Shown: one piece after another, positions 18,996-21,802 of the stretch
Position numbering within the stretch: position 1 is the first letter of the stretch
How the letters are laid out: each line of letters starts with the position of its first letter
Source: Thermodesulfobacteriota bacterium
GTDB taxonomy: Bacteria > Desulfobacterota > BSN033 > WVXP01 > G020346125
Assembly: GCA_030145085.1 (NCBI GenBank)
Contig: JAQYWG010000010.1
Location: forward strand, 1 to 32,643
Length of the DNA: 32,643 bases
Direction: 5' to 3'
Position numbers and translations under genes: made by a program
The notes under the pieces: model-generated
The model's input: the letters and a program-made list of their open reading frames with translations, nothing else
Told to the model about the DNA's origin: nothing
Databases searched by the model: none

Positions 18996-20276
18996 ATGTT
19001 AGACATCAAGTTTATCCGGGAACATCCCGATGAGGTAAGGGAAGGATGCCGTAAGAAGGGGGTGGATGTCGATCTTGATCGCTTGCTGGAGGTCGATGAA
19101 GGGCGCCGAAAGGTCCTCATGGAGGTGGAGGGATTACGGTCCCAACAAAAGAGGATGAGCAAGGAGATCTACCGGAAAAAGGGAGAATCGGGTCAGCCAG
19201 CGGGGATCGATGAAATGAGGGACCTGAAGGCACAATTGAAGGATGCCGAGAAGCAATTGAGGCCCATTGAGGATGAATTCCATACCCTTATGGGGATAGT
19301 TCCGAATCTTCCACTTCCCGAAGTTCCCGAGGGGAGGGATGAAACGGAGAACGTGGTTGTTCGGGAGGTTGGGCAAAGGCCGACTTACGATTTTACCCCT
19401 CGGGATTATATGAAGATCGCGGAAGGTTTGGATATCATCGACACGAAAAGGGCGGCTAAGGTCTCCGGGTCGCGGTTCGGTTATCTTAAAGGGGCTTCAG
19501 TTCTTTTGGAGTTTGCACTGGTTCGATTGGCCATAGATACCCTTATGGAGGAGGGATTTATTCCAGTTATCCCACCCGTGATGCTCAATTATAAGGCGAT
19601 GGATGGCATGGGATATTTAACGAGGGGGGGCAGTGAGGTATACCAGGTCGAAAAAGACGATCTTTATCTCGTTGGGACATCTGAGCAGTCCCTCGGGGCG
19701 ATGCACATGAGTGAGGTCTTGGATCAGGGGGATCTGCCAAGGCGGTATGTAGGCTTTTCCACGTGTTTCAGGAGGGAAGCGGGTTCCTACGGCAAGGATA
19801 CAAAGGGAATTCTGAGGGTTCATCAGTTCGATAAGGTTGAAATGTTTTCTTTTTGCGAACCGGAGAAATCCCGGGATGAACACGATTTTATCCTGGAAAT
19901 GGAGGAGAAATTGGTCCGTATGCTGGGGATTCCCTACCGGGTCGTCCAAATGTGTGGCGGCGACCTGGGGGATCCGGCGGCCGATAAACGGGATATTGAG
20001 TGCTGGATGCCCGGTATGGGAGAATATCGGGAAACCCATTCCTGTTCGAACTGTACGGATTTTCAAGCAAGGAGGCTCAATGTTCGATATCGTGCCCGCG
20101 GCCAAGGATCCGGTGGGACAAAGCTCAGATTCGTCCATACCCTCAATGGGACTGCCTACGCCATCGGCAGGATAATCATCGCCATTATCGAGAACTTCCA
20201 GCAGGCCGATGGAACGGTTCTCATCCCCGATGTCCTGAAGGGCCCTATGGGCGGGATTGAGAGGATAGGGAGGTGA
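18996..20276 (+). CDS. serS: Seryl-tRNA synthetase
   Basis: Class II synthetase charging tRNA-Ser. The N-terminal coiled-coil arm (residues 1-105, starting [20 protein letters not shown]) reads the long variable arm of tRNA-Ser. Motif 2 is seen in [20 protein letters not shown] and motif 3 in [20 protein letters not shown]. The 426 residues are normal. A GGGA lies 9 nt before the start. The stop codon is only 2 nt before a tRNA-Ser gene, so serS and its substrate tRNA almost certainly share a transcript that RNase P cuts. Confidence 0.97.
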
Positions 20277-20278
20277 TA

Positions 20279-20366
20279 GGAGGGATGGCCGAGTGGATGA
20301 AGGCGGCGGTCTTGAAAACCGCTTCTCCGAAAGGAGACGGGGGTTCGAATCCCTCTCCCTCCGCCA
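20279..20366 (+). tRNA. tRNA-Ser(TGA)
   Basis: Cloverleaf with acceptor stem GGAGGGA/TCCCTCC, discriminator G and encoded CCA. Anticodon stem GCGGT/ACCGC, loop CTTGAAA, anticodon TGA. A long variable arm (TTCTCCGAAAGGAGA) marks a class II serine tRNA. T-arm GGGTTCGAATCCC. It starts 2 nt after serS. Confidence 0.97.
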
Positions 20367-20449
20367 AAACTCCCGCCCCCGAGTTAGAGGGCTGAGTTTT
20401 CCATCCCCTATAGCGGAAAAGTATGATATTATTGAAACGATTAGCCGAC

Positions 20450-20542
20450 GGAGAGATGGCCGAGTTGGCTGAAGGCGCTCGCCTGCTAAGCGAGTAATCC
20501 GGGAAATCGGATTCGAGGGTTCGAATCCCTCTCTCTCCGCCA
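20450..20542 (+). tRNA. tRNA-Ser(GCT)
   Basis: Acceptor GGAGAGA/TCTCTCC with discriminator G and encoded CCA. Anticodon loop CTGCTAA, anticodon GCT (reads AGC/AGU). Long variable arm and T-arm GGGTTCGAATCCC. An 83-nt gap separates it from the previous tRNA. Confidence 0.97.
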
Positions 20543-20558
20543 TTTATCTTCGACCCAC

Positions 20559-20635
20559 GCGCCCATAGCTCAGCTGGACAGAGCAACGGACTACGAATCC
20601 GTAGGTCGGGTGTTCGAATCACCCTGGGCGCGCCA
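20559..20635 (+). tRNA. tRNA-Arg(ACG)
   Basis: Acceptor GCGCCCA/TGGGCGC with discriminator G and encoded CCA. Anticodon stem ACGGA/TCCGT, loop CTACGAA, anticodon ACG. A34 of this tRNA is normally deaminated to inosine by TadA, whose gene is the next one downstream. Confidence 0.97.
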
Positions 20636-20643
20636 CTCAAATT

Positions 20644-20676
20644 AAAGGGTTACGTGATCGGCGTAATCCTTTTTTT
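20644..20676 (+). terminator. Rho-independent terminator of the serS-tRNA unit
   Basis: Arms AAAGGGTTACG (20644-20654, first A included) and CGTAATCCTTT (20662-20672) give an 11-bp stem with one G-U pair and a 7-nt loop, followed by a run of T. It ends the serS/tRNA-Ser/tRNA-Ser/tRNA-Arg transcript. Confidence 0.85.
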
Positions 20677-21027
20677 ATGCTAGAGGAGGATAGGAGTATC
20701 TACCCCACTTCATTTGGGAAAAGCTGATTCTTCCGACGATTGATTCTCCTTGGCCTGTCGTAGTACATCCCCCTAAGGAGCCAATGGTCCCCCCTTCGAA
20801 TGGGCTATAGCATAGATTGAAAAGCTACGCTGCGGTTTTGGCGGGTGAGCGAAAAGCACGTTGACTTTCTCCAGTTTGGGTGATAGAGTTTTGAGTGCAA
20901 GTAGGCCGCACATTATACGCGGGTTGCTCTGTTTGGCAATTCTAACCTGCTGAAATCATAGAAAATATGCTTCATCAGACGCTCTAGGTATTTGAGCGGG
21001 GTCCAATCTCATAGGTTCTTACCTCAT
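20677..21027. other. Spacer before tadA, nothing recognised
   Basis: About 350 nt between the terminator and the tadA start. No open frame with family resemblance, no repeat family member and no convincing RNA structure. A promoter for tadA should lie here, but I could not choose one. Confidence 0.5.
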
Positions 21028-21522
21028 ATGATAACGGCGGCGAAGGAATTGATCGAAAGGGTCGTAAAAGAGGTAGCCATTGATGAGAAATTCATGGAGA
21101 TGGCCCTGGAGGAGGCGAAGAGAGCGACATCGGAGGGCGAAGTTCCCATTGGTGCCGTCCTGATAAAAGGGGGGGATATCATCGCGAGGGATCATAACCG
21201 CTGTATCCAGCTCAATGATCCCACCGCCCATGCTGAAATCTTGGTTATTCGAGAAGGAGGACGGGTATTAGGGAATTATCGACTTCCCGAAACTACCCTT
21301 TATGTAACCGTTGAACCCTGTCCTATGTGTGTGGGTGCGATTACCCAAGGGAGGATTGGGAGACTCGTTTACGGTGCTCCTGAGGATAAGATGGGGGCTG
21401 TAAGCTCAAAATTTCCCCTCTTGAATGACCCTGGTTTAAATCACCGGGTAGAGGTAAACGGAGGCATTTTGAAACGGGAGTGTTCCGAAATAATCCAGGG
21501 TTTTTTCAGGGGAAGGCGTTGA
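21028..21522 (+). CDS. tadA: tRNA adenosine(34) deaminase
   Basis: Zinc enzyme that converts A34 of tRNA-Arg(ACG) to inosine so one tRNA reads CGU, CGC and CGA. The zinc site and catalytic glutamate are intact: HAE with H68 and E70, and PCPMC with C98 and C101, numbering from the ATG at 21028 (164 residues). Relatives begin near MEMALEEAKRA, so the first 20 or so residues may be untranslated; the starts at 21028 and 21094 and a TTG at 20992 all lack a clear ribosome binding site. It is flanked by its substrate tRNA-Arg(ACG) upstream and two tRNA-Ser genes downstream. Confidence 0.92.
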   Translation: MITAAKELIERVVKEVAIDEKFMEMALEEAKRATSEGEVPIGAVLIKGGDIIARDHNRCIQLNDPTAHAEILVIREGGRVLGNYRLPETTLYVTVEPCPMCVGAITQGRIGRLVYGAPEDKMGAVSSKFPLLNDPGLNHRVEVNGGILKRECSEIIQGFFRGRR

Positions 21523-21542
21523 TAGGGTTCGGGAGGGAATTC

Positions 21543-21635
21543 GGAGAGGTACCGAAGCGGTCATAACGGGGCCGACTCGAAATCGGCTGTCCTGGGAAAC
21601 TGGGACCGTGGGTTCGAATCCCACCCTCTCCGCCA
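21543..21635 (+). tRNA. tRNA-Ser(CGA)
   Basis: Acceptor GGAGAGG/CCTCTCC with discriminator G and encoded CCA. Anticodon stem GCCGA/TCGGC, loop CTCGAAA, anticodon CGA (reads UCG). Long variable arm and T-arm GGGTTCGAATCCC. It starts 20 nt after tadA. Confidence 0.96.
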
Positions 21636-21708
21636 TTTCTCTACCTTGCGGGGATGGGGATGGGAGATAACGGGTTTACGCCCGTGTTCTATTGTCTCAT
21701 CAATTCAG

Positions 21709-21802
21709 GGAGAGATGCCCGAGTTGGTTTAAGGGGCACGACTGGAAATCGTGTGTACGCCCAAAAGGTGTACCGAGGGTTCGAATCCCTCTCTCTCCGC
21801 CA
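21709..21802 (+). tRNA. tRNA-Ser(GGA)
   Basis: Acceptor GGAGAGA/TCTCTCC with discriminator G and encoded CCA. Anticodon stem CACGA/TCGTG, loop CTGGAAA, anticodon GGA (reads UCC/UCU). Long variable arm. It lies 50 nt before the SRP RNA. Confidence 0.96.

Follow-up and report, generated by a model that had tools for sequence, protein, structure and literature searches.

A serS gene two nucleotides ahead of tRNA-Ser(UGA): conserved gene order and a likely joint transcript in a Thermodesulfobacteriota draft genome

The stretch of DNA considered here, the window, comprises 32,643 nucleotides (nt) of contig JAQYWG010000010.1 from a Thermodesulfobacteriota bacterium (assembly GCA_030145085.1). In our numbering it is contig C11 of genome G000, a draft of 3.14 Mb on 480 contigs. 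It contains serS, the gene for serine--tRNA ligase, together with four serine transfer RNA (tRNA) genes, a tRNA-Arg(ACG) gene and tadA; the four serine tRNAs and both enzymes span 2.8 kb on one strand. The locus is mainly an ordinary conserved gene order, with a likely joint transcript of serS and the tRNA-Ser(UGA) directly behind it.

Gene layout of the locus

All five tRNA genes at the locus lie on the plus strand; they were called by ARAGORN, and all five were matched by Rfam (Table 1). The serS stop codon TGA occupies positions 20274-20276 and is followed by TA and then by the first base of tRNA-Ser(UGA), and this junction, TGA-TA-GGAGGG with its 2-nt gap, is identical in a sister species (G003). 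A preliminary description of the window had placed tRNA-Ser(TGA) 2 nt behind serS, with tRNA-Ser(GCT) next and the CGA and GGA isoacceptors within 1.6 kb. These coordinates and identities are right by both ARAGORN and Rfam, with the last tRNA-Ser ending 1.53 kb past the serS stop. The same description had named tRNA-Arg(ACG), the substrate of TadA, as the nearest gene 5' of tadA. This holds among recognised genes, yet the two are about 390 nt apart, with a terminator-like hairpin in between.

It had further been claimed that all four serine tRNAs expected in a bacterium are found here. Across the whole draft, Rfam matched 23 tRNAs above the cut-off and another two under it (at E up to 10), and among the 18 tRNAs outside the window, in what is an incomplete tRNA set, ARAGORN found no further tRNA-Ser or tRNA-Arg(ACG). 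No tRNA for Cys, Glu, His, Ile, Trp or Tyr is among the 23, so further tRNA-Ser genes may lie on missing stretches. The claim therefore stands for the tRNAs of the draft and falls short on completeness; that the locus holds all serine tRNAs of the genome is likely.

Table 1. Features of the serS neighbourhood, with positions in the window
Feature	Position	Strand	Remarks
uvrA	15922..18693	+	5' end of the neighbourhood among same-class loci
promoter-like site of serS	18930..18958	+	TTGACG, 17 nt, TAGTAT; TG ahead of the -10
serS, serine--tRNA ligase, 426 amino acids	18996..20276	+	TIGR00414, 478 bits (NCBIfam)
gap TA, 2 nt, from serS stop to tRNA base 1	20277..20278	+	predicted ribonuclease P (RNase P) cut 20278/20279
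tRNA-Ser(UGA), CCA encoded	20279..20366	+	ARAGORN, Rfam
hairpin directly 3' of tRNA-Ser(UGA)	20366..20400	+	possible weak terminator; ends in 4 T
extended -10-like site TGATATTAT	20424..20432	+	17 nt 5' of tRNA-Ser(GCU); read by eye
tRNA-Ser(GCU)	20450..20542	+	ARAGORN, Rfam
tRNA-Arg(ACG)	20559..20635	+	ARAGORN, Rfam
intrinsic terminator-like hairpin, then T-run	20644..20672	+	site scan; fold z -3.71
tadA	21028..21522	+	NF008113, 191 bits (NCBIfam); ATG at 21028, earlier in-frame TTG at 20992
tRNA-Ser(CGA)	21543..21635	+	ARAGORN, Rfam
tRNA-Ser(GGA)	21709..21802	+	ARAGORN, Rfam
bacterial small signal recognition particle (SRP) RNA (ffs)	21860..21957	+	RF00169, 74.4 bits (Rfam)
dnaX	22070..23773	+	downstream part of the neighbourhood

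Conservation of the serS-tRNA-Ser order

The order was followed in 156 serS loci with their flanks, from 155 genomes of the same phylum and 69 families (genome G017 contributed two loci, and the window itself was excluded). These loci came from 132 of the 149 other genomes in the best 150 rows of matches, with 267 of 297 genomes matched, and 24 loci were added from a second listing; the sample is not random, 17 listed genomes having been skipped, some of them with serS near a contig end. A locus counted as positive if a tRNA-Ser on the strand of serS begins within 600 nt of the serS stop, and 8 of the 156 loci could not be called. Where at least 600 nt are available downstream, 58 of 139 loci and 28 of 67 families are positive. 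When nine positives on shorter stretches are also counted (no negatives were taken from such stretches), the numbers become 67 of 148 loci and 29 of 68 families. Loci of the same family are not independent, and the family count is the fairer measure. Assuming five tRNA-Ser genes per 3 Mb, chance would give about 0.08 loci in 148, and the adjacency is thus more than chance. Of the 67 positive loci, 65 have the UGA isoacceptor as their first tRNA-Ser and 2 have GCU, and no opposite-strand tRNA-Ser was found within 600 nt in any of them. At 24 of the 67, tRNA-Ser(UGA) is the sole tRNA within 1.6 kb in the available stretch, which marks it as the core of the unit. The tRNA starts between -9 and 585 nt from the serS end (at most 13 nt in 15 of the 67, at most 150 nt in 57), so that the 2-nt gap sits close to the lower limit, and this broad spread rules it out as a conserved device.

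The order serS-Ser-Ser-Arg(ACG)-tadA-Ser-Ser-dnaX is present at two loci of the same class (L142 and L152) and at L161 and L287; SRP RNA was not searched there. L287 comes from a distant relative that keeps the order at identities of 40% for serS, 47% for tadA and 55% for dnaX. In a same-class family (f3), uvrA lies 5' of serS in 13 of 15 loci. The locus is a member of an old, shared gene order, uvrA-serS-tRNA-Ser(UGA)-tRNA-Ser-tRNA-Arg(ACG)-tadA-tRNA-Ser-tRNA-Ser-SRP RNA-dnaX.

Some same-class genomes show rearrangements among the serine tRNAs. In L142 and L152, tRNA-Ser(GCU) and tRNA-Ser(GGA), which in the window lie at 20450-20542 and 21709-21802, have exchanged places; their outer parts are closely similar, and they differ mainly in the anticodon arm and the variable arm. 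This suggests gene conversion between the two genes in these genomes. At L149 (G013) there is a tandem pair of tRNA-Ser(GGA) calls, of which the first seems to be broken, with an incorrect 3' end. In G001, whose locus (L137) is among those that could not be called, a loss of the tRNAs was considered and rejected, a run of N being present at the serS-tRNA junction; in this single-contig assembly the missing tRNAs are indistinguishable from an assembly gap.

Transcription units and competing explanations

From the positions of the genes, their conservation and the predicted hairpins we infer the transcripts and the RNase P cutting discussed here, and any regulatory effect. serS and tRNA-Ser(UGA) very likely share one transcript, because the gap between them is 2 nt and a site scan scored neither promoter-like nor terminator-like sites in it. 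Same strand, short gap and no intervening terminator or promoter are the marks by which a joint transcript of messenger RNA (mRNA) and tRNA would be recognised, and the pair has them. In the end of serS, too, the scan scored no promoter-like site. The promoter-like site ahead of serS (18930-18958) is identical in G003 and differs once, in the -10, in G001, and an Rfam search of 18600-22100 (E up to 1) found neither a T-box nor any other known leader 5' of serS. A Shine-Dalgarno-like GGAGGTGAT at the serS stop is not retained in G003 and was taken as chance.

Behind tRNA-Ser(UGA) lies the hairpin 20366-20400, which has a predicted fold of -13.8 kcal/mol (z -2.82) and is retained in G003, with 5 T there; the site scan did not score it as a terminator. 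The -10-like TGATATTAT at 20424-20432 is identical in G003, and the scan instead scored an overlapping promoter-like site at 20398-20427, whose -35 is not retained in G003. The hairpin behind tRNA-Arg(ACG), at 20644-20672, folds at -15.4 kcal/mol (z -3.71) and cannot be aligned with G003, where a different T-rich stretch is present; because of this hairpin, tadA and the last tRNAs probably form one or more units separate from serS. About 350 nt upstream of tadA (in 20640-21030), plus the first tadA codons, are non-homologous between the window and G003 (L136, L293), with the rest of tadA up to the start of dnaX nearly identical and the tRNA-Arg side nearly identical too. A tadA promoter scored at 20861-20889 is unsupported, the stretch upstream of tadA being non-homologous in G003. 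On the best reading, serS-tRNA-Ser(UGA) is probably a first unit and tRNA-Ser(GCU)-tRNA-Arg a second, with tadA in one or more units further on. The earlier idea of a shared transcript that ties the serS level to the supply of tRNA-Ser survives for serS and tRNA-Ser(UGA), given the 2-nt gap, the absence of scored sites between them and the retained order. It is not supported for the serine tRNA supply as a whole, on account of the hairpin after UGA, the -10-like site before GCU and the terminator-like hairpin after tRNA-Arg(ACG).

We hold it probable that the locus is a conserved neighbourhood whose core is a two-gene unit, serS and tRNA-Ser(UGA), jointly transcribed and cut by RNase P 2 nt past the stop. 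Transcription would start just 5' of serS, at the site at 18930, continue through serS and tRNA-Ser(UGA), and halt in part at the hairpin behind the tRNA. The cut is placed at 20278/20279 because this is the known site of RNase P action. It would free tRNA-Ser(UGA) and leave a serS message ending almost at its own stop codon, 2 nt beyond it, in keeping with the preliminary description, in which a joint transcript needs RNase P to cut at the serS stop. tRNA-Ser(GCU) and tRNA-Arg(ACG) would come mostly from their own promoter, their transcript ending at about 20672, and tadA and the last two tRNAs (Ser CGA and GGA) would be made in later units. tRNA-Ser(UGA) is the serine tRNA needed for UCA codons. 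A functional coupling would offer a simple means, free of a T-box, of tying the amount of synthetase to that of tRNA-Ser(UGA).

A number of observations weigh against a coupled core unit. The adjacency is missing in 81 of the 139 same-phylum loci, and in E. coli K-12 serS is without any tRNA in the 12 kb examined, so the coupling is dispensable; the range of offsets means that the tight junction itself is not conserved. Other phyla were represented by the best 80 of a longer match list, mostly Actinomycetota and Patescibacteria, five of which were too short; in none of the 75 named-genome relatives with at least 600 nt downstream does a same-strand tRNA-Ser lie within 600 nt of serS. The nearest Ser(UGA) among them begins 858-862 nt past serS, in five related actinobacterial loci, and at L043, L067 and L104 clusters of Ser(UGA)-Ser(GCU)-Arg(ACG) begin 1.3 to 4.6 kb downstream of serS. 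When 20240-20380 is folded as one strand, it gives no cloverleaf and does no better than shuffles (z -0.98). The site counts, too, are barely above those in shuffles (5 against 2.7 for promoter-like and 5 against 4.4 for terminator-like sites), so the unit boundaries draw on folding and on what a single sister species has conserved rather than on the scan. The missing adjacency and the wide spread of the serS-tRNA gaps would also fit mere inertia of gene order, in which the genes stay side by side, free of any functional link, for want of an event that separated them, and tRNA-Ser(UGA) is transcribed from a promoter of its own within the serS coding sequence. A pairing control points the same way. 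Among 31 open frames flanking the 18 other tRNAs, one synthetase was picked by eye and confirmed, its frame being the one scanned: thrS on contig C188 (L011), with tRNA-Val(GAC) directly 5' of it. This pair in the same genome is non-cognate, and adjacency of a synthetase and a tRNA alone is therefore no proof of function. We nevertheless consider inertia alone unlikely, as the order is kept in the distant L287, the UGA isoacceptor comes first in almost every positive locus, and the end of serS is without a scored promoter-like site.

The opposite extreme would be a single regulated unit, from serS to tRNA-Arg or further, that couples both enzymes, synthetase and modifying enzyme, to their substrate supply. 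The single strand, the short gaps and the presence of four serine tRNAs and both enzymes in so small a span speak for it, as does the cluster order retained in several families, with tRNA-Arg(ACG) and tadA only about 20 nt apart in L287. Against it stand the hairpin after UGA, the separate promoter-like site of GCU, the terminator-like hairpin after tRNA-Arg, and a distance of 3.6-3.7 kb between tRNA-Arg and tadA in L152 and L161. The non-homologous stretch ahead of tadA in G003 suggests that these two genes are mere neighbours and not a regulatory pair, a view against which the short spacing in L287 speaks in turn. Taken together, we regard one regulated unit as improbable.

Two other genomes of the survey bring the tRNA still closer to serS. 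In G025 (L178) tRNA-Ser(UGA) starts on the final base of the serS stop TAG, a 1-nt overlap, and in G255 (L206) the stop TAG forms bases 8-10 of the tRNA, a 10-nt overlap. Both are drafts, G255 being 98% and G025 84% complete, with 9 and 8 tRNA matches of at least 80 nt, respectively. Among these matches each genome shows a single tRNA-Ser(UGA), the overlapping copy, and one each of GCU, CGA and GGA. In the tRNA-Ser(UGA) of G255 the D arm is unusual and the T stem shows, by eye, a single mismatch. Should the overlaps be real, excision of the tRNA destroys the serS stop codon. A self-limiting unit may be imagined, in which a given transcript would mostly yield the synthetase or the tRNA but not both: a ribosome ending serS would cover or melt the acceptor stem of the tRNA, and the RNase P cut would leave a message ending 2 nt past the stop. 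In G025 and G255 the choice would be exclusive, since the cut would remove the stop codon and the ribosome would go to rescue by transfer-messenger RNA (tmRNA). In the same scheme the conserved tRNA may have anchored the swap-in of the off-type serS described below. We think this very improbable. The overlap genomes allow a direct test of whether one transcript can yield both synthetase and tRNA.

The off-type serS and comparison with known systems

This genus carries, between the usual neighbours, a serS that differs from the type common in its phylum. The gene is 85-92% identical within the genus and 39-50% when compared with the remaining listed genomes of the phylum. Compared with L142, of the same class and with the same gene order, uvrA, tadA, dnaX, ybaB and recR are 59-71% identical, against 44% for serS. 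Usual neighbours and usual position are what displacement in situ would leave behind, as is the lack of a second, typical serS in the draft: G000 has one full serS, and the sole other match is weak (E 8.6e-5) and is the thrS on contig C188.

Two test trees were made under LG+G4 without mixture, with rows from other phyla chosen as close matches to the query. The first held 56 of 129 rows, the off-type phylum rows L138, L181, L189 and L257, which had not grouped with the main clade in an analysis of all 129, having been excluded beforehand, and the second held 47 rows with these four restored. In the 56-row tree the genus sits among mostly Patescibacteria-labelled rows (98/98 for a set of 13 rows), with a weak exact sister (71/23); beyond the genus, the closest rows are for the most part Patescibacteria-labelled metagenome-assembled genomes at path lengths of at least 1.1. 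A single group of the genus and the typical rows of the phylum is rejected in both trees, with 27 typical rows in the larger (approximately unbiased (AU) test, p 6.3e-8) and 16 in the smaller (p 9.7e-68). Two genomes from the same taxonomic order have a serS in yet another tree position, and no tRNA-Ser was seen behind it, one of the two loci being too short to tell. In-place replacement by a foreign gene would explain this most simply. The phylum may instead harbour an old second serS type, as the 47-row test does not reject one clade uniting the genus with L138 and L189, from two further off-type families (p 0.21). The overlap cases and this off-type serS in the usual slot are the points of specialist interest.

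Among known systems, gene displacement in situ within mosaic operons was reportedly described by Omelchenko and others in 2003. The present case is like it in that an off-type serS occupies the usual slot between usual neighbours, and unlike it in that the placement of serS among mostly Patescibacteria-labelled rows, with its weak sister group, points to no one donor, and in that the gene may belong to an old second type of the phylum. In Bacillus subtilis the region presumably reads serS / trnSL-Ser1 / tadA / scr / dnaX, and the likeness is that serS adjoins a tRNA-Ser, with tadA, SRP RNA and dnaX nearby. In passages of two papers, trnSL-Ser1 is named in one and trnSL-Arg1 and -Arg2 in the other, neither alongside serS. 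The serS of Bacillus methanolicus bears a T-box, according to a table in PMC4342826, unlike the serS described here, for which an Rfam scan found none. Among the open-licence titles and abstract beginnings searched there was no description of co-transcription of serS and tRNA-Ser, which is no proof of its absence in print. In the pylTSBCD operon, too, a synthetase gene lies next to its cognate tRNA gene; that is a dedicated non-canonical pair, unlike the ordinary serine system here. The closest parallel in layout is secG-leuU of E. coli, an mRNA-tRNA transcript separated by RNase P; a case of this kind in E. coli is said to have been reported by Mohanty and Kushner in 2008. As in secG-leuU, a protein gene is followed by a same-strand tRNA, presumably in one transcript cut at the 5' end of the tRNA. 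Unlike there, the gap is 2 nt, the processing is deduced, and the protein gene encodes the synthetase that charges the tRNA behind it.

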